This document shows, piece after piece, positions 1,213-32,551 of a stretch of DNA of 47,509 nt; position 1 is the stretch's first letter; every line of letters begins with the position of its first letter. The notes under the pieces are model-generated. The model saw only the letters and a program-made list of their open reading frames with translations, was not told the DNA's origin and made no database searches. The position numbers and the translations under genes were made by a program. The DNA is taken from positions 1 to 47,509 of the IMG/VR virus record IMGVR_UViG_3300042387_002469. The stretch is one strand, 5' to 3'. Source of the DNA: a virus.

Positions 1213-3942
1213 ATGTATCAATCGGTTTTCTACAATAGATTACCCGGAGAGGATCAATGGCATTACTATCTCAGGGACGATAAAAAAGGAATACACAAAT
1301 TCCAGTATTGGCCCACTGTCTATAAACTTGATGAAGAAGGGGAATATGAAACACTATTTGGTGATAGATGTTCCCCTCTCCAAGGTAAATACGATAGAAA
1401 AGATCCTACTATTCTAGAAAAAGATATTGACCGTGAACTTGTATTGTTAAGGGATTTGTATTACAAGACAGATGAAATGCCCTCCTACCACAATACCGTT
1501 TATTTGGATATTGAGATTGAAATTCTAGGTGCACTTACACCAGTTACAATCAAAGAGGCAAATGCTGAGATTACAGCAATTGCTTTGATTGATGCTTCTA
1601 CTAAAGAAAAAATATGTTTTATCTTAGATAAAGCAGGTAAAATTGAAGACATCGATCAAGATGGTAAGCAAGTTATTTCTTGTGCAAGTGAAGATACTTT
1701 ACTACGTAAGTTTTTATTGAAATGGGAACAAATGGATCCTACAATTGTTGTAGGTTACAACAGTGATTTCTTTGATATTCCATATTTGTACTATCGAATC
1801 AAGAAAAAACTAGGAGATGAAGTATATCGCTTATCCCCAGTAGGTAAAATTGAAGAGGTACCATCCCAACCCAATTCCCCAATTCGTATTGGTTTAGTTA
1901 ACAGTCTAGACTATATGATGTTGCTTCGCAAATATATTATGAAGGAAGAACCATCATATAAACTAGGTGACATTGGAACCAAGTATGCTAAACTAGGAAA
2001 AATTGAATACAATGGTAGTTTGGATACATTGTTTAGAGAAGACCCAAACAAATTCATCGACTACAACATTCGAGATGTTGAAATCATTGAGGCACTAGAG
2101 GAAAAACAGAAGTTTATTGAATTGACTATTTTGATTTCCCACCTATGCCATACACCATATGAATCAATTTACTACAATACTGCATTAAATGAGGGTGCTA
2201 TTTTAACGTATCTAAAACGTAAAAATATTATTGCACCAAACAAACCGACAACTACAAACCCATCAATTAGGGAATTGGAATTGGGTGATCATGTTGTACA
2301 CCAACGAGGTACTTCTACAATTGAAGGTACAGTATATGCTTTTGAGGACAAGCAAGTTATAGTTAAAACAATGGCTGGAAAATATATTGCTCGTAACCCT
2401 AGAACAATTAAGAAAAAAGACAGTTACGCAGGTGGATATCTACTTGATCCTATTCCAGGATTATATTCAGATGTAAGTGACCTTGACTTTACCTCACTAT
2501 ATCCTTCAATTATCAAATCTTTAAATTTGGGTGTTGAAACGTTGGTAGGTAGAATTGTTACAAAAAACAATTACGAGCAGTACAATTCACTTGAACAGTT
2601 AAAGAAGCTTGACCCTGAAGAAAAAATACATATCCAAAAACTAAACCGATATTCATATCAACTTAAAGATGCTACAATATCAGTTGGGGCTCTAATTCGC
2701 TTGATTGAAGACAATAATTGGACTATTTCTGCTAGTGGGGCGTTTTTTACAAACGATAAGAAAAGTATTGCTTGCGAGGTACTTGAGGACTGGTTTGATC
2801 AGCGAGAACATTATCGAGCACTTAAGAAAACCGCAGGTAAAGCGGAAGATTGGGCCAATTACAAACTATATGACTTGTATCAAATGGCATTCAAGATCTT
2901 GCAAAATGCCTTGTATGGTACATATGCAATCAACTCTTGGCGCTTTACAGATGGATTCAAAATATGTTCAGCTGGGATTACAAACAGTGGACAACGTTTA
3001 ACAAAAGAATCGATTATATTTGTAAACAATTACATTTCCGATCAACTTGAAATCGACCCTAAAGATTTTGTTATCGCCTCAGATACCGATTCACTTTATA
3101 TGGAGTTGACTGATTTGCTTAAAAAACGTAACCCCGATCTAGACTACAATGATCGTGAAGAAAAAATCAAACGATTGTTGGTTTTGACAGAGGAACTCCA
3201 AGATGTAGCAAACGGAAATCTAAACAATATTACGCAGGATCTGTTCAATATGCATGGCAAACACCACTTCGTGTTGAAACAGGAGGTAATCGCTGAAAAA
3301 GCATATTGGGCTGGTAAACGTAGATACGCTATTTACATTGTAAATAAAGAAGGTGTACCTATTGAGGAACTAGAGATGAAAGGATTGGACATTATGAAAT
3401 CTAATTTCCCACCTTACTTTAGAAACTTTGGAGAGGAACTTATCAAATCCATTCTATTCAGTAAACCAAAAGAAGATATAGACAAATTTGTAATGGATTT
3501 TAAAAATTCAATGCAAACAGTAGAGTGGATTAAGTTACTTAAACCAACTGGATTGAAAAAACTAGGTGAATATATTGAACGTAAACCTATGGCTGGTGAA
3601 TTGTTTTCTAAGTTGAAATTGAAATGCCCCATCAACACCAAATCAGCTATTATTTACAATGACTTTTTGCGTTACAAGAAACTCAATGTAAAATACCCTG
3701 AATTTACAATTGGAGACAAAATGTATATTGCTTATTTAAAACCAAATCCATATCAAATTGAGGTAATCGGTTACAATGGCTACAATGATCCACCTGAAAT
3801 TACAGAATTGATCAACAAGTATATTGATCGTGATGGTTTATTTGATAGTGTAATTCGAAACAAATTAGAGGGAGTATACAATGATATTGGATGGGTATTG
3901 AATTTGAACCCGTTTAAAGCTAAATTCTTCAATTTCAGCTAG
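1213..3942 (+). CDS. gp43: DNA polymerase, family B (T4 gp43-like)
   Basis: Replicative DNA polymerase with proofreading exonuclease. At 909 aa it is close to T4 gp43 (898 aa). Exonuclease motifs: Exo I D99-I-E101, Exo II N183-x3-F187-D188, Exo III Y284-x3-D288. Polymerase motifs: A D425-FTSLYPS, B K561-x3-N565-ALYG, C D624-T-D626-S. All catalytic residues expected for an active enzyme are present. Start is the ATG at 1213 in a GAGTTATG context, 17 bp after the previous stop. It is followed 32 bp later by the sliding clamp, and clamp-loader genes lie 5 kb downstream, so the replisome is nearly contiguous. Confidence 0.96.
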   Translation: MYQSVFYNRLPGEDQWHYYLRDDKKGIHKFQYWPTVYKLDEEGEYETLFGDRCSPLQGKYDRKDPTILEKDIDRELVLLRDLYYKTDEMPSYHNTVYLDIEIEILGALTPVTIKEANAEITAIALIDASTKEKICFILDKAGKIEDIDQDGKQVISCASEDTLLRKFLLKWEQMDPTIVVGYNSDFFDIPYLYYRIKKKLGDEVYRLSPVGKIEEVPSQPNSPIRIGLVNSLDYMMLLRKYIMKEEPSYKLGDIGTKYAKLGKIEYNGSLDTLFREDPNKFIDYNIRDVEIIEALEEKQKFIELTILISHLCHTPYESIYYNTALNEGAILTYLKRKNIIAPNKPTTTNPSIRELELGDHVVHQRGTSTIEGTVYAFEDKQVIVKTMAGKYIARNPRTIKKKDSYAGGYLLDPIPGLYSDVSDLDFTSLYPSIIKSLNLGVETLVGRIVTKNNYEQYNSLEQLKKLDPEEKIHIQKLNRYSYQLKDATISVGALIRLIEDNNWTISASGAFFTNDKKSIACEVLEDWFDQREHYRALKKTAGKAEDWANYKLYDLYQMAFKILQNALYGTYAINSWRFTDGFKICSAGITNSGQRLTKESIIFVNNYISDQLEIDPKDFVIASDTDSLYMELTDLLKKRNPDLDYNDREEKIKRLLVLTEELQDVANGNLNNITQDLFNMHGKHHFVLKQEVIAEKAYWAGKRRYAIYIVNKEGVPIEELEMKGLDIMKSNFPPYFRNFGEELIKSILFSKPKEDIDKFVMDFKNSMQTVEWIKLLKPTGLKKLGEYIERKPMAGELFSKLKLKCPINTKSAIIYNDFLRYKKLNVKYPEFTIGDKMYIAYLKPNPYQIEVIGYNGYNDPPEITELINKYIDRDGLFDSVIRNKLEGVYNDIGWVLNLNPFKAKFFNFS

Positions 3943-5134: not shown

Positions 5135-7075
<1,941 letters not shown>

Positions 7076-20888: not shown

Positions 20889-21857
20889 ATGACAAAAGTA
20901 GTATACGTAACGGGATGTTTAGGATTTATAGGATCCTATGTAACAAGAAAATGCCTTGATAAAGGATGGTATGTAAAAGGAGTAGATAAAATTACTTACG
21001 CCGCTAATAAAGATTTATTAGAGGAATTTAAATCATACCCAAATTTCTCATTTGTTCATTGTGATATTAATGAATTAAAGTTTTTATATGATTGTGATTT
21101 TGTAATTAATACAGCCGCTGAAACACACGTTGGTAATTCAATTGCTAGTAGTGCTGAATTTGTTAAGTCAAATATTGATGGAGTTCATAATTTACTTGAA
21201 TTAATTAAAAACCATAGAGGAGAAAATGCTCAAAAACCAGTATTACTCCACTTTAGTACAGATGAGGTATATGGCGATATTGAAGAAGGTGCTCATGATG
21301 AAGAACACTTACTCAAACCATCTAACCCATACTCAGCAACCAAAGCAGCAGCTGATATGTTAGTTATGGCTTGGGGTAGAACACATAAAGTACCTTACAT
21401 GATTATTCGTCCAACAAATAATTATGGTATTGGACAATATGTTGAAAAATTAATTCCTAAAGCAGTTAAATTATTAAGCTTAGGACGTAAAATTCCACTT
21501 CATAACCATGGAACACCTTATAGAAATTGGTTACACGCCTCTGATACTGCTGAAGCTGTAATTACATTGATTGAAAAAGGTCAAATTGGAGAAATTTACA
21601 ATGTAGCTGGTGGTTTTGAACAGCAAAATATTGAAACCATTAAACAAGTAATTACTGAATTCGGTCAAATTATAAATTGGGAAGATTTTCACAATATTGA
21701 TCACTATGTAGATTTTTCTTGCCATCGACCAGGACAAGATGTTCGTTATGCTTTAGATGATTCTAAACTAAGAGCTTTAGGATGGGAACCAAAATGCGTG
21801 TTTTCTGAAGAAATTACTCGTATAGTTAGTTATTACAAAAGCAAATTTATATGGTAA
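20889..21857 (+). CDS. rmlB: NDP-glucose 4,6-dehydratase (RmlB-like)
   Basis: Extended short-chain dehydrogenase, 322 aa. NAD site G9-x2-G12-x2-G15 (GCLGFIG), DKITYA after strand 2, NTAAETHV, catalytic STDEVYG and Y-S-A-T-K, and a late TPYRNWLHASDTAEAV. All match dTDP-glucose 4,6-dehydratases. It makes a 4-keto-6-deoxyhexose, the substrate type needed by the RfbH-like dehydrase at 17022. The nucleotide (dTDP or CDP) is not decided by sequence. Overlaps the next gene by 7 bp. Confidence 0.88.
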   Translation: MTKVVYVTGCLGFIGSYVTRKCLDKGWYVKGVDKITYAANKDLLEEFKSYPNFSFVHCDINELKFLYDCDFVINTAAETHVGNSIASSAEFVKSNIDGVHNLLELIKNHRGENAQKPVLLHFSTDEVYGDIEEGAHDEEHLLKPSNPYSATKAAADMLVMAWGRTHKVPYMIIRPTNNYGIGQYVEKLIPKAVKLLSLGRKIPLHNHGTPYRNWLHASDTAEAVITLIEKGQIGEIYNVAGGFEQQNIETIKQVITEFGQIINWEDFHNIDHYVDFSCHRPGQDVRYALDDSKLRALGWEPKCVFSEEITRIVSYYKSKFIW

Positions 21858-23602
21858 AAATTAGTGATGTTATAGTAGATTTTCTATTAAAAAACAATAT
21901 TGAAGTTGTATTCGGAATTATAGGTTCTGCTAATTCACATATATACGATTCCATAAATAAACATCCTAATATTAAATTAGTACCCGTCCATCACGAGCAA
22001 GTAGCCGTGATGGCAATGGGTGCTTATTATCGCTCAAGTGGTAAAATGGCGGTAGCATTAGTTACTGCTGGTGGTGGTTCTTCCAATTCATTCACTGGTA
22101 TTCTATCTAATTGGGCTGATTCCATCCCAGGAATTATTATTTCAGGACAAGAACAATCATATTACATTGATCAATATTCAGATATGAGAATGTATGGTAT
22201 TCAAGGATATGATTCAGTAGACACGTTTTCAAAACATACTAAAATGTCTGTTCGAATCACTAAAGAAAACTTGTACGAGACATTCAATAATGCTTTTCAA
22301 ACAACTCAAATTAATAGACCAGGTCCTGTATTTTTGGAAGTACCATTTGATGTTCAAGGACAGATGGTTGAAGAACAACCTATTACTCCTTATAAAAAAT
22401 TAGGTAATCCAATGTTAAGTCCAAAAACATTAGACTTGATAGATTTACTTAACCAAAGTAAAAAACCAGTTGTAATTGGGGGGCATGGTGTCAAATTATC
22501 CCAATCAGAAAAATTATTTAAACAGTTTATTGAACAACATAATTTACCTACAATACTAACTTGGTCAGCAGTAGACTTACTCGAAGAAACTCATCCAAAC
22601 AATTATGGCCGCTCAGGAGTTCAAGGACAGCGCTCAGCTAATTTTATTGTTCAAAATTGTGACTTATTAATTGTAATGGGAAGTAGATTATCTTTATTAC
22701 AAACAGGATATTCTAGAGCAGATTTTGCTCCACATGCAAAAATAGTTCATATTGATATAGATCCAACCGAAACAAATAAATTTGATGGATTATCAATCAA
22801 TGAAGATATTGGAAATATTTTACATAATTTAATTTCAATCGATTCAATTAAAGTAGATACTACAGATTGGAAATCATATTGTGATGATATTCGAAACAAA
22901 TATCCTCGAGTGATGCCTGAGCATTTAGCTGATCCTACTAATTCATATACATTTATGGATTGGTTTTCAAATAAAGTACCTGATAACTATACTATTGTTA
23001 CAGATATGGGAACAGCATTATTAAGTGGTTTCTATGGGTTTAATATTAAATCAAATCAAAAGATGTTTACATCACTTGGTTTAGGTGAAATGGGATATGG
23101 AATTGCAGCTGCAGTTGGAGCTGGATTTGGCCCAAACCCAGTAATGTGTTTAAATTGTGATGGTGGGATGATGATGAATCTCCAAGAATTACAAACTATC
23201 AAAACCCAAAATCTCCCAGTTAAAATAGTTATCTTTAATAATGATGGTTATTTGATGATTAAACATACTCAAAACATGTTATTTGGAGGAACTAAAACAT
23301 GTGTTGATAAGAAAACAGGCGTTGAACTTCCAGATTATAAAAAAGTAGCAGAAGCATTTGAATATGAATACTATACTATTGATCAAGTAGATGAATTTTT
23401 ATCATCACCAAATCAAGGTATTTTAGAAGTATTCATGGATCCAAACCAAGAATTTATACCTAAAGTAAGAGGTATTAAAAATAAAGATAATACAATTCAA
23501 GCAGGTCTTTTGGAAGAAATGTCTCCTTTATTATCTTTAGACAATATTAAAGAAGCAATGATTTCTGGAATACATGAACGAAGTAATACAGTAGAAAGAT
23601 GA
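21851..23602 (+). CDS. Thiamine-diphosphate enzyme, acetolactate synthase-like
   Basis: A 583-aa TPP enzyme of the acetohydroxyacid-synthase family. The activating Glu is E49 (HHEQVAVMAMG). The ThDP/metal motif NCDGGMMMN begins near 434 and ends with N-N-D-G-Y near 463. The domain order is Pyr, central, PP. In a sugar cluster, the closest functional model is YerE, which adds a two-carbon unit to a keto-deoxysugar, rather than branched-chain amino-acid synthesis. Followed directly (4-bp overlap) by an acylating aldehyde dehydrogenase and aldolase pair. Confidence 0.85.
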   Translation: MVKISDVIVDFLLKNNIEVVFGIIGSANSHIYDSINKHPNIKLVPVHHEQVAVMAMGAYYRSSGKMAVALVTAGGGSSNSFTGILSNWADSIPGIIISGQEQSYYIDQYSDMRMYGIQGYDSVDTFSKHTKMSVRITKENLYETFNNAFQTTQINRPGPVFLEVPFDVQGQMVEEQPITPYKKLGNPMLSPKTLDLIDLLNQSKKPVVIGGHGVKLSQSEKLFKQFIEQHNLPTILTWSAVDLLEETHPNNYGRSGVQGQRSANFIVQNCDLLIVMGSRLSLLQTGYSRADFAPHAKIVHIDIDPTETNKFDGLSINEDIGNILHNLISIDSIKVDTTDWKSYCDDIRNKYPRVMPEHLADPTNSYTFMDWFSNKVPDNYTIVTDMGTALLSGFYGFNIKSNQKMFTSLGLGEMGYGIAAAVGAGFGPNPVMCLNCDGGMMMNLQELQTIKTQNLPVKIVIFNNDGYLMIKHTQNMLFGGTKTCVDKKTGVELPDYKKVAEAFEYEYYTIDQVDEFLSSPNQGILEVFMDPNQEFIPKVRGIKNKDNTIQAGLLEEMSPLLSLDNIKEAMISGIHERSNTVER

Positions 23603-24462
23603 AAATAAAAGTAGCAATTTTAGGTACAGGAAATATAGGTACTGACCTAATGTTAAAATCAATTAAAACAGATTTTATCGATGTAGTAGCATTTGTAGGT
23701 CGAAGATTAGATTCCCCTACAATGCAAATAGCCCAAGAAAAAGGTATATTAACCTCAGACCAAGGTATTAACTATTTTATCAATAATCCAAAATGTTGTG
23801 ATGTTGTATATGATTGTACTAGTGCTGCTGATGCTAGAGAACATGCTAAAGTGTTTAAAGAGCAAGGAATTAAAGTAATTGACTTGACCCCAGCTAAAGT
23901 AGGAGATATGTGTGTGCCTGATATTAACTCAGATTTGATTTTAACTGATGATAATGTAAATATGATTACTTGTGGAGGACAAGCTTCAATGCCAATGTTA
24001 CATTTAATTTCAAAACATTGTACAGGATTAGAATATGTTGAGATTGTATCTCAAATTGCATCTAAAAGTGCGGGTATGGCAACTCGAATTAATGTTGACA
24101 ATTACATTGCAACTACAAGAAAAGCAATTACTAAGTTTACAGGATGTAAAAACACCAAAGTAATCCTTAACCTAAACCCAGCTGAACCTTGTGTTGATAT
24201 GCAAACAACAATCTTTATTAAAACTAAAGATATTAATTTTAATCATTTAACAGAAGAGATTGCTGAAAAAATTGAGGAATTAAAAACATATATCCCATAT
24301 TATGAGTTAGTATTACCTCCAACTATGAATGAAAATGGAGTAGTAGTTCTAAGTATTCGAGTAAAAGGTACAGGTGATTATCTTCCAGAATATGCAGGTA
24401 ATTTAGATATTATCAATTGTGCCGCAATTAAAATTACAGAAAAATTAAGTCAAAACATATGA
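23599..24462 (+). CDS. mhpF: Acylating acetaldehyde dehydrogenase
   Basis: Interconverts acetaldehyde + CoA + NAD with acetyl-CoA. Rossmann site AILGTGNIG (7-14) and the catalytic Cys in MITCGGQASMP (C125) match DmpF/MhpF; 287 aa is slightly short of the roughly 310 aa usual. DmpF enzymes work as a channeling complex with the aldolase encoded next (4-bp overlap). In a glycan cluster the enzyme may run in reverse, giving acetaldehyde for the aldolase. Confidence 0.87.
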   Translation: MKIKVAILGTGNIGTDLMLKSIKTDFIDVVAFVGRRLDSPTMQIAQEKGILTSDQGINYFINNPKCCDVVYDCTSAADAREHAKVFKEQGIKVIDLTPAKVGDMCVPDINSDLILTDDNVNMITCGGQASMPMLHLISKHCTGLEYVEIVSQIASKSAGMATRINVDNYIATTRKAITKFTGCKNTKVILNLNPAEPCVDMQTTIFIKTKDINFNHLTEEIAEKIEELKTYIPYYELVLPPTMNENGVVVLSIRVKGTGDYLPEYAGNLDIINCAAIKITEKLSQNI

Positions 24463-25460
24463 AAAATCTAATCATTACTGATTCAAGTCTTAGAGATGGA
24501 AATCATAGTGTTAAACACACAATCAGTTTAGATAGTATTGAAAAATATTGTCAATTTGCAGACAAAGCAGGTATTCCAATTGTTGAAGTAGGACATGGTA
24601 ATGGTTTAGCAGCTTCATCTTTATTAATTGGTAAATCTCCTAATACAGATAAGGAAATGCTTACTACAGCAAGAAAAAACCTTAAAAACTCTAAATTAGG
24701 TGTTCATACTATTCCAGGGTTATCAACAATTGATGATGCTAAATTAGCTATGGATTATGGAGTAGATGTATTTAGAGTAGCAACTCATTGTACTGAAGCT
24801 ACTTTATCTAAATCCCACATTGAATATTTAGCTAAAACAGATAAAACTGTTTATGGTGTATTAATGATGTCTGCTTTGATTACTGCTGAAGAATTAGCTG
24901 AACAAGCAAAAATTATGGAAGATTATGGTGCTGAGGCTATTATTATTATGGATTCAACAGGTACTTATCTACCACGTGACGTAAGAGAAAGAATTAGTTT
25001 ATTAAAATCTAGATTGAATATTAAAGTTGGTTTCCATGCTCATAATAATTTAGGATGTGCAGTAGCTAATTCATTAGCCGCAGTAGAAAGTGGAGCTGAA
25101 TTAATTGATGCATGTATTCGAGGATTTGGAGCAGGAGCAGGTAATGCACCATTAGAACTTATTCTCCCGGTATTTGAAAAAATAGGTTACACTACAGGTA
25201 TTAGTTTTGAAGAAACCATTAAAGAAGCAGACCGTGTAATGGATTATTTAGTACCATCTGCTCCCATTACTACCCCAATTAATGTATTAACAGGATTAAC
25301 TCGCTTATTTTCAGGATTTGAAAAACCAATTGTAAAAGCATCTAAATTATATGGTATCGAGTATTCATCTCTTATCTTTGAATTAGGTAATAGAAAATTA
25401 GTTGCTGGTCAAGAAGATTTAATTTTAGAAGTTGCTCAAAAATTAAAAGAAAATAAATGA
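24459..25460 (+). CDS. mhpE: 4-hydroxy-2-oxovalerate aldolase
   Basis: Class II pyruvate aldolase, 333 aa. D8 and the SLRDGNHSVKH segment (R12, D13, with His residues) form the active-site entrance; GFHAHNNLG near 192-200 supplies the metal-binding H-x-H; D-S-T-G-T and IRGFGAGAGNAPLE complete the family pattern. It cleaves or, in reverse, makes 4-hydroxy-2-oxopentanoate from pyruvate and acetaldehyde. Genetically fused in layout to mhpF upstream, and overlaps the next gene by 4 bp. Confidence 0.9.
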   Translation: MKNLIITDSSLRDGNHSVKHTISLDSIEKYCQFADKAGIPIVEVGHGNGLAASSLLIGKSPNTDKEMLTTARKNLKNSKLGVHTIPGLSTIDDAKLAMDYGVDVFRVATHCTEATLSKSHIEYLAKTDKTVYGVLMMSALITAEELAEQAKIMEDYGAEAIIIMDSTGTYLPRDVRERISLLKSRLNIKVGFHAHNNLGCAVANSLAAVESGAELIDACIRGFGAGAGNAPLELILPVFEKIGYTTGISFEETIKEADRVMDYLVPSAPITTPINVLTGLTRLFSGFEKPIVKASKLYGIEYSSLIFELGNRKLVAGQEDLILEVAQKLKENK

Positions 25461-30724: not shown

Positions 30725-31030
30725 ATGGCCAAGGAAATTAGTGTATTCGATACGGATGAATTTGAACAGTTAGTTGCTAGTAGGGATTTAAGAATTTCAA
30801 AAGCGTTAGTAGAAACCATTTTGAAAAACCTAAATGGTAGAAAAAGACATATTCACGCTCTATCTGTTTTAATTGAGCAAGAGCAAACAATGTACGACAT
30901 AACAATTGATCGTCAAGAATTTATCTCCACCTTAGAACAAAACCTACCAATTTATGAAAAACATGAATTGTATGAAGGGTGTGCCGAGATAGTTAAAGCA
31001 ATCCAGTTTTTAAAAGAAAAGAAAAAATAA
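30725..31030 (+). CDS. Protein of unknown function
   Basis: A 101-aa helical protein (KALVETILKNLNGRKRHIHALSV, EHELYEGCAEIVKAIQFLKEK). No recognised motif. Begins one base after 30568-30723 and is followed by a promoter. Confidence 0.7.
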   Translation: MAKEISVFDTDEFEQLVASRDLRISKALVETILKNLNGRKRHIHALSVLIEQEQTMYDITIDRQEFISTLEQNLPIYEKHELYEGCAEIVKAIQFLKEKKK

Positions 31031-31060
31031 TTTGGTTACCTGATCTTTTGTTCGTATATT
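31031..31060 (+). promoter_or_regulatory. Full Bacteroidota-type promoter
   Basis: TTTG (31031-31034), 20 bp, then TATATT within TTCGTATATT (31051-31060). It is one of the clearest cases where the phage motif has the complete two-part structure. Start at 31078 lies 17 bp downstream. Confidence 0.78.
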
Positions 31061-31077
31061 CAAGCAAATAAAAGGTT

Positions 31078-31551
31078 ATGTTAAAGGAAACTTGGATTGT
31101 TTACAAAGATGGTACTGTTAAAACAGAGATCATATCACTCAAAGACGGTGAAGTGTTTTCTGTAAATCCACGACAAGACAATATCCAACATGCAGGTATT
31201 CGAACATTCAAATACCACGTTCCACAACATAGATATTTACCAAAAGCAATTGTTCGCCTAGGAGGAAAAACATATATTTATCCTGAACAAATAGAATGTC
31301 ATCCTGACACAACATTAGATGACATTATTGTAGATGTTGAGGAGACAGTGACAGTTGAAGAAACAACCACTCTTCAAACACCAGAGAAAAAAACATGGGA
31401 ATTTGAATCGTCAAGTGGAGATGGAAAATATTTTGTTTCACTTAACAAATTTGGAAACCCAAAATGCAATTGCCCAGGTGTTTGGAGAGCAAAAGACAAA
31501 AGATGTAAACACATCAAAGAAGTTGAAATAGAGCTTGGATTAGTGAAATAA
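31078..31551 (+). CDS. SWIM zinc-finger protein
   Basis: A 157-aa protein with two parts. N-terminal 110 residues are beta-rich (WIVYKDGTVKTEIISLKDG) with an acidic threonine linker. The C-terminal 45 residues carry a SWIM finger: C-N-C followed by 12 residues and C-K-H (KCNCPGVWRAKDKRCKH). SWIM fingers bind DNA or proteins in varied settings. Start AAGGTTATG is well placed behind the promoter. Confidence 0.75.
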   Translation: MLKETWIVYKDGTVKTEIISLKDGEVFSVNPRQDNIQHAGIRTFKYHVPQHRYLPKAIVRLGGKTYIYPEQIECHPDTTLDDIIVDVEETVTVEETTTLQTPEKKTWEFESSSGDGKYFVSLNKFGNPKCNCPGVWRAKDKRCKHIKEVEIELGLVK

Positions 31552-31576
31552 AGTTATTAGATTTAAAATAAAAAAA

Positions 31577-31684
31577 ATGAGTAAAACATCACACAAACAA
31601 AAATTAGAGGCTTTACAAAGCTGGATTAGTTGGATCACGTTCCAATCTAAAAAGAAAGGCACTAAAAAAACCCTGTCGAGGTAG
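31577..31684 (+). CDS. Tiny basic ORF
   Basis: A 35-aa ORF (MSKTSHKQKLEALQSWISW...) in A-rich leader, 25 bp after the SWIM gene. It has a helix plus a lysine-rich tail. It could be a real small protein or the leader of the structured RNA that follows. Confidence 0.4.
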   Translation: MSKTSHKQKLEALQSWISWITFQSKKKGTKKTLSR

Positions 31685-31790
31685 TGCAAGGTGGTAGTTA
31701 GACGAAAATGAAATTCCTGCTGTGATGTTAACTTTAATCAGCATATTCAGAAGTAGAAATGAATAACCGCAAATTATTCGCCACCACGAT

Positions 31791-31865
31791 GCCGATGTAG
31801 CTCAGTTTGGCTAGAGCAGCTGATTTGTACTCAGCGGGTCGGGAGTTCGAATCTCTCCGTCGGCT
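31791..31865 (+). tRNA. tRNA-Thr, anticodon TGT
   Basis: Complete cloverleaf: acceptor GCCGATG / CGTCGGC, anticodon stem GCTGA / TCAGC with loop TTTGTAC (anticodon TGT), T-arm GGGAG / CTCTC around TTCGAAT. No CCA is encoded; discriminator T. Reads ACA threonine codons. Confidence 0.9.
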
Positions 31866-32134
31866 CAAAAAAATCGCTGATGTCCTCATACGTTCGACAT
31901 CGAAGGTGTGTAATGCTAGCAGCACCTGCAGGTTAAGCGATATCCTGCCCCTACCCCACCGTTACTTGTTAACGGAACCCCATAGTGATACTATTGCTAT
32001 GGAATTTTAACAGTACCAGGAACACATACCGTAAGATCTGTGCATCAGTTCTGGTCTTCTCGTTATTGGGAAGTTGGGAAGATTTATAGGTGTAAACGCG
32101 TTACCTCTATAAACACCCATATAACTAGTAACAC

Positions 32135-32180
32135 CCCCTAGTAAGTCTGTCTGATCAACAGAAACTGCTAGGGGTTTTTT
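32135..32180 (+). terminator. Terminator closing the structured RNA
   Basis: Outer stem CCCCTAG / CTAGGGG and inner stem TCTGT / ACAGA with 7-nt loop CTGATCA, followed by six T. It ends 2 bp before the next tRNA. Confidence 0.85.
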
Positions 32181-32182
32181 AA

Positions 32183-32256
32183 GGTTTCTTAGCTCAGTAG
32201 GTTAGAGCAACTGACTCATAATCAGTAGGTGCTAGGTTCGATCCCTAGAGGAACCA
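32183..32256 (+). tRNA. tRNA with CAT anticodon (elongator Met or Ile2)
   Basis: Acceptor GGTTTCT / AGGAACC, anticodon stem ACTGA / TCAGT with loop CTCATAA (CAT), T-arm TAGG around TTCGATC. Position 1 is paired with 72, so it is not an initiator. Sequence cannot separate elongator tRNA-Met from lysidine-modified tRNA-Ile reading ATA, a codon common in AT-rich genes. No CCA is encoded. Confidence 0.88.
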
Positions 32257-32275
32257 CTAATTAAAATAAAATAAA

Positions 32276-32551
32276 ATGATTGAATTTATTGCAGGGGCGC
32301 TTTGCCTAGGAATGGCTGTAACAATGATAATTACAGCTCGTTTATTGAGTAGAATTTCCAAATTGGAAGAACAAGTACAGGATTTGAAAATATCTATTGT
32401 TGATGTTTGTCGAGACATAAATCTAGTTGAACGTACTCTTCTAAATCGAATTGATACCGTTGATCAAACACATTCACGAGTAGAAGATGAAATTCGTCAG
32501 GTAATGACGGGTTCTATGAAGAGCTCAAATAAAAGATTGTTAAAAGGGTAG
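32276..32551 (+). CDS. Membrane-anchored coiled-coil protein
   Basis: A 91-aa protein: one N-terminal membrane helix (about 2-25), then a heptad-like stretch (LEEQVQDLKISIVDVCRDINLV) to residue 70. It may be a spanin-like, holin-associated or exclusion factor, but no specific evidence exists. A terminator overlaps its stop. Confidence 0.7.
   Translation: MIEFIAGALCLGMAVTMIITARLLSRISKLEEQVQDLKISIVDVCRDINLVERTLLNRIDTVDQTHSRVEDEIRQVMTGSMKSSNKRLLKG

Follow-up and report, generated by a model that had tools for sequence, protein, structure and literature searches.

In the tRNA cluster of a virus we found a modular noncoding RNA, one domain of which, D1, matches the antitoxin hairpins that bacteria encode beside the abiF toxin gene. 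On the strength of sequence comparison we consider it probable (about 0.7) that D1 is an orphaned version of the RNA antitoxin to AbiF and that the RNA bearing it would be made from the tRNA cluster to neutralise the AbiF of the host. Direct support covers structural conservation, the match between D1 and the hairpins of bacterial abiF genes, and the absence of the toxin gene from the window and nearly all relatives. AbiF belongs to the Abi_2 family and is a HEPN RNase proposed as an ancestor of Cas13; its antitoxin RNA is encoded just upstream of abiF.

Modular organisation of the region between the tRNA genes

The window, i.e., the whole stretch of DNA analysed, is a 47.5-kb virus record. 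Its tRNA-Thr and tRNA-Met genes are separated by 316 nt devoid of a convincing ORF, in agreement with an earlier note on this DNA, which had placed a noncoding stretch after tRNA-Thr. This stretch folds at −91.4 kcal/mol vs. −72.6 kcal/mol in shuffles (3.2 SD better), and only 1 of 100 shuffles was as stable. A coding function was rejected because the structure covaries and the indels are not multiples of three; two ORFs (63 and 67 aa) were rejected as genes because both run through tRNA. The region comprises the following features.

31690-31785, + strand: module A, a self-contained structured RNA with the closing stem GGTGG/CCACC, from comparison with relatives
31791-31866, + strand: tRNA-Thr (UGU)
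31867-31950, + strand: module B, a pseudoknotted RNA, from nine aligned copies
31873-31878/31936-31941, + strand: P1 of module B (ATCGCT/AGCGAT)
31879-31884/31896-31901, + strand: P2 of module B
31905-31908/31923-31926, + strand: P3 of module B
31914-31921, + strand: palindromic P3 loop of module B, TGCTAGCA
31928-31932/31944-31948, + strand: pseudoknot (PK) of module B (GCAGG/CCTGC)
31952-32006, + strand: module C, two hairpins (31959-31964/31970-31975 and 31980-31985/31997-32002)
32009-32060, + strand: D1, a putative abiF-type antitoxin hairpin, from the match to model R1 and covariation
32015-32021/32049-32055, + strand: P1 of D1
32023-32026/32039-32042, + strand: P2 of D1, with the loop at 32027-32038
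32062-32132, + strand: D2, a hairpin domain with a conserved GAA/AUAA internal loop; helices 3-5 covary
32062-32065/32129-32132, + strand: outer stem of D2 (GTTA/TAAC)
32135-32180, + strand: D3, a conserved hairpin and an intrinsic-terminator-like end (CCCCTAG/CTAGGGG, T6) with conserved AAG/ACT
32152-32157, + strand: palindromic loop of D3 (TGATCA)
32183-32257, + strand: tRNA-Met (CAU)

Viral relatives were gathered by means of two flanking proteins, the RNA itself playing no part in the choice. Their comparison showed that the region consists of several modules shuffled among relatives rather than of a single RNA: module A, which precedes tRNA-Thr, the pseudoknotted module B, module C and module D (D1-D2-D3) each have a separate distribution. 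The locus L010 has B first, followed by a tRNA-like stretch, then A, two hairpins and finally D; in L011, B and D are kept apart by a tRNA-Leu-like gene and tRNA-Met; and in L016, L064 and others an extra hairpin, H2, lies upstream of C. The new structured RNA beside tRNA that the earlier note had proposed is thus indeed structured, conserved and without an Rfam match, but the interval 31690-32180, taken there as one RNA, contains a tRNA and at least three RNA units that can be told apart and whose arrangement differs between relatives. The elements it had listed could be located, namely perfect hairpins (GATGTC/GACATC, CCGTTA/TAACGG, CCATAG/CTATGG and the terminator CCCCTAG/CTAGGGG with T6) and the long-range closing stem formed by P1 of module B; the bipartite terminator is also present, as module D3.

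The 3′ part, module D, is a real, conserved structured RNA found in more than 20 loci. In an alignment of 22 viral copies (A1; region 32006-32184, 39 pairs in seven helices) 95% of the cells are paired, and 28 of the 39 pairs change on both sides, vs. a mean of 16 for shuffled controls. The cells changing on both sides number 127, vs. 34 in shuffled and 5-13 in slid controls. All covariation measures but one beat 500 of 500 shuffles, the remaining one beat 498 of 500, and all of them beat the slid controls; the compensatory changes in relatives on which the earlier note had made its proposal depend are therefore present. D3 taken alone (20 diverse copies) has 98% of its cells paired and double changes in 8 of 11 pairs, and D2 occurs in other viruses in a short form, GAATAGCCCAAGGCATAAG.

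Rfam, at gathering as well as relaxed thresholds, recognised no family except tRNA in the region, and matches to other families (freshwater-1, a group I intron) fell outside it; cmscan of 31550-32280, as the earlier note had suggested, gave nothing up to E 10 apart from tRNA-type and chance matches. GOLLD, ROOL and riboswitches were rejected for want of an Rfam match in that search, and the total length here is far shorter than that of GOLLD or ROOL. When 31867-32182 was compared by blastn with 50,697 phage records, only chance matches were returned, no longer than 28-36 nt, and no kinship with the stable RNAs of T4 emerged; among isolated phages, neither the region nor D1 gave a useful blastn match beyond the tRNAs. 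One neighbour of the tRNA cluster is a metallophosphoesterase gene (238 aa), and since its nearest named isolates are the Flavobacterium immuto phages (55-56% identity), the host of the phage is likely a member of Bacteroidota.

Match of D1 to the hairpins upstream of bacterial abiF genes

The D1 hairpin (52 nt) is by itself not unusually stable relative to shuffles (z 0.15), so that the case for it is a comparative one. When a motif representing the phage D1 core was searched across the genomes of 85,000 bacterial and archaeal species, it matched 60 bacterial contigs (62 sites), mostly from Bacteroidales, vs. about 15 matches expected by chance according to a rough base-count estimate. The bacterial sites sat within an outer stem that the motif had left unspecified, and at 37 of the 62 an Abi_2 gene in the same orientation starts within the next 700 nt. 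Pfam Abi_2 was present in 13 of 14 sampled motif-bearing genomes, and one Bacteroidales Abi_2 protein matches PADLOC AbiD (1.5e-72) and PDB 8VZ6 (5e-53). A copy lying upstream of abiF in Litchfieldella (L140) aligns to the Rfam family of abiF RNA, RF03085, with the same structure (25.0 bits), which identifies the RNA at the bacterial motif sites, as judged from the alignment, as abiF RNA. A further abiF-type hairpin was seen in a Bacteroidales contig (L119, 258-280), 173 nt upstream of a Cas9-like ORF, with no Abi_2 nearby.

In a motif-free test, Bacteroidales Abi_2 genes were chosen by Pfam alone, and a hairpin was found just upstream of most of them. Ten bacterial abiF-upstream hairpins, none of them chosen by the motif, were used to build the model R1. 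Run over the whole window without filters, R1 gave D1 (32009-32060) as the sole significant match (25.3 bits, E 1.4e-5; the runner-up had 10.3 bits, E 1.3), aligning 52 of 52 positions with all model pairs standard and in the same layout as RF03085 on L140. The RNA that the earlier note could match to nothing known thus has, in D1, a part recognised by a model of bacterial hairpins. Like abiF RNA (RF03085; RCd22, AbiFr), D1 has an outer stem, a 1-nt 5′ bulge, a short inner stem, a loop of about 12 nt and a 3′ bulge of about 6 nt. The window copy is a weak member, since the match is lost under the default filters; its identity to the closest bacterial hairpin compared is 63%, and being divergent and among the weaker members it may have lost affinity. 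Relatives scored higher (66.2 bits, E 2e-18 in L011; 36 bits in L010; 34 bits in L003), and 100 further viral loci yielded 55 matches at E ≤ 0.01.

The RF03085 model itself matched neither the window nor L016 at E ≤ 10. Its gathering score is 37 bits, and the model appears to miss the D1 subtype because even the bacterial copy upstream of abiF (L140) scores only 25.0 bits; unlike RF03085 members, the phage copy falls under Rfam detection, and D1-type RNAs escape standard Rfam annotation. R1 also picked out the hairpin H2, which in 13 loci precedes C or D and scores 30-49 bits; its flanks resemble a long-loop bacterial hairpin (L329) that is absent from R1. One more locus, L271, has D1 and, 550 nt off, a hairpin 89% identical to the bacterial L318, a third subtype. 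Several of the related phages thus have two abiF hairpins that belong to different bacterial subtypes and, to judge by these matches, such phages accumulate antitoxin hairpins of more than one subtype.

Absence of the toxin gene and the proposed role of the phage RNA

Abi_2 was not found in the window, which is a contig rather than a complete genome, and was absent from 28 of 29 relative viral records searched whole (up to 174 kb; mostly contigs), L195 being the sole exception. Among 120 viral motif sites, Abi_2 follows at only 1. D1 thus resembles a host antitoxin RNA while the toxin gene is absent, as a mimic would; it lacks the position of an abiF RNA, with no abiF/Abi_2 gene directly downstream. 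Unlike bacterial abiF RNA, the phage copy lies inside a longer C-D1-D2-D3 RNA within a tRNA cluster. An orphan abiF hairpin among phage tRNA genes, likewise matched by R1 (34.4 bits), is found in the lytic cyanophage S-CREM1 between tRNA-Asn and tRNA-Gly, and its complete genome (178 kb) has no Abi_2; unlike the window D1, this copy is of the canonical Rfam subtype and comes from an unrelated phage lineage. The S-CREM1 abiF sRNA has been annotated, and the authors, in the available part of their text, propose that it functions during infection and give it no anti-AbiF role (PMC9964418).

In C. difficile, the abiF RNA neutralises AbiF both in cis and in trans through direct protein binding, for which its stems are required (PMC12373285), and in the structure of PbAbiF with RNA (8VZ6) one RNA is bound per monomer and an RNA bulge blocks the nuclease (reviewed in PMC12737573). 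Because the same hairpin binds and blocks AbiF in these cases, the phage RNA should sequester or silence the host AbiF. In the mechanism we propose, the phage tRNA cluster would express a multi-domain noncoding RNA carrying D1, co-transcribed with the tRNAs in the window, as we assume; during infection this RNA would act in trans on the AbiF of the host, binding it and so preventing abortive infection. D3 would end the RNA and probably stabilise it too, and the adjoining phage tRNAs could stand in for host tRNAs that nucleases of this sort cleave. In two relatives (L187, L236) D1 is directly preceded by TAnnTTTG, which we take to be the Bacteroidota-type −7 box consensus, suggesting that D1 has its own promoter there; no such box was found in the window at 31000-32300.

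Imitation of an antitoxin by a phage RNA is already known: the pseudo-ToxI RNA of phage TE imitates the antitoxin of ToxIN (PMC3475682). In both cases a phage noncoding RNA imitates the RNA antitoxin of an abortive-infection RNase, here as inferred from sequence; in contrast to pseudo-ToxI, the toxin would be the HEPN protein AbiF rather than ToxN, the RNA fold is different, and many phages have the D1 RNA as a stable and conserved gene rather than as a rare escape repeat. If this is true, antitoxin-RNA imitation is a common, gene-like form of phage counter-defence directed at AbiF, not a rare escape mutation, and some of the noncoding RNA that lies in the tRNA clusters of phages, a puzzle dating from the stable RNAs of T4, gains a function.

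Three other explanations have to be weighed. The RNA may have a regulatory or structural function in the phage, D1 having a protein-binding hairpin in common with abiF RNA but serving another partner, such as an RNA-binding protein of phage or host, and not defence evasion. This would fit the five further conserved modules that have no known link to defence, the cores of D2 and D3, whose conservation equals or exceeds that of D1, and the outcome of a search with a D3 model in 395 Bacteroidota genomes, where the 19 matches at E ≤ 0.01 were mostly ordinary terminators, so that D3 has no bacterial cognate there. We nevertheless regard it as unlikely, given that the D1 loop, the 3′ bulge and the flanking AACAGUACC...GGUCUUUU match the hairpins adjoining abiF and that abiF hairpins of several subtypes occur together in phages. 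That the RNA instead belongs, as the antitoxin, to an AbiF toxin-antitoxin system of the phage itself, the toxin being lost or lying outside the contig, is an idea to which the presence of both RNA and abiF in the viral contig L195 and the prophage-borne C. difficile system (PMC12373285) lend some weight; it appears very unlikely in view of the lack of Abi_2 from nearly all relative records, several of them exceeding 100 kb, and from the complete S-CREM1 genome. Moreover, the structural constraint on the RNA persists without the toxin, and complete genomes of close relatives without abiF have largely been seen already.

It is hardly credible that the RNA is a mere processing or termination element punctuating a polycistronic tRNA transcript. 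The terminator-like hairpin of D3 with its T6 often ends no more than 5 nt before the next tRNA, just as such an element would, but the conserved loops and internal loops of D1 and D2 exceed what punctuation needs, and D also occurs where no tRNA follows (L010, L070). An abiF hairpin was not found in the Flavobacterium immuto phages, the closest named isolates by the neighbouring protein, nor in the lactococcal phage sk1. Protection of phage 712 against AbiF by sk1 DNA has been reported, according to a title cited in PMC12737573; as sk1 has no such hairpin, this protection is not explained by one.

Modules beyond D1 and neighbouring sequences

AbiF does not explain D2, D3, B, C and A. Module A (about 95 nt) is very conserved in sequence (90% identical in L010) and was seen in 13 viral contigs, mainly between tRNAs. 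Its closing stem changes on both sides, to GATGG/CCATC in L361 and GGGTGG/CCACCC in L010; its folding energy is no better than that of shuffles (z 0.12), and it has no Rfam match. Module C lies upstream of D in L041, L038, L068, L050, L002, L064 and others, with differing stem sequences. In module B, P3 covaries (GGTG/CACC, GAGC/GCTC, GACG/CGTC). The pairs of the GCAGG/CCTGC pseudoknot, whose sequence elements are present as the earlier note had stated, are invariant in the nine copies, and covariation therefore gives no verdict for or against it.

The P3 loop of B (31905-31926 of the window compared with L011, L355, L015 and L038) is palindromic throughout the subtypes seen while its sequence varies: TGCTAGCA, TACCGGTA, GTGCAC, TGATATCA and ACCGGT. 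The loop of D3 (window 32150-32159; L201, L248, L269) is a palindromic TGATCA, TGGCCA or TAGCTA, and in some copies it is swapped for a longer stem with a GACG loop, D3 thus having two exchangeable ends. Because the loops stay palindromic as their sequence changes, they suggest that B and D3 form homodimers, in B through kissing loops. A bolder and doubtful extension is that the modules together constitute a modular anti-defence array in which, in addition to D1, modules A, B, C, D2 and D3 would each be a decoy or inhibitor of other RNA-controlled toxins, shuffled between phages to match the host's arsenal, and in which palindromic-loop dimers would match dimeric HEPN toxins.

Several further observations were made in passing. 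In L002, a close relative of the window, a freshwater-1 RNA (RF02979, 74.5 bits) at 1435-1496 directly precedes tRNA-Thr. Some cmscan tRNA matches are 105-125 nt long (L002, 1167-1273 and 2154-2278; L012, 5002-5125; L065, 513-621), which exceeds the normal length, as if these tRNAs had inserts or large variable arms. An inter-tRNA RNA of a Flavobacterium phage immuto (L352, about 3320-3400) contains GGACTGGGGTGTCCCCGGTCG, which nearly equals the H2 loop hairpin of L014 and L012 in a different context. Elsewhere in the window the phage encodes a GroEL-like chaperonin (5429-7075), and acetolactate-synthase-like, acylating aldehyde dehydrogenase-like and aldolase-like genes (21851-25460) adjoin sugar-nucleotide epimerases, a metabolic cluster unusual for a phage.
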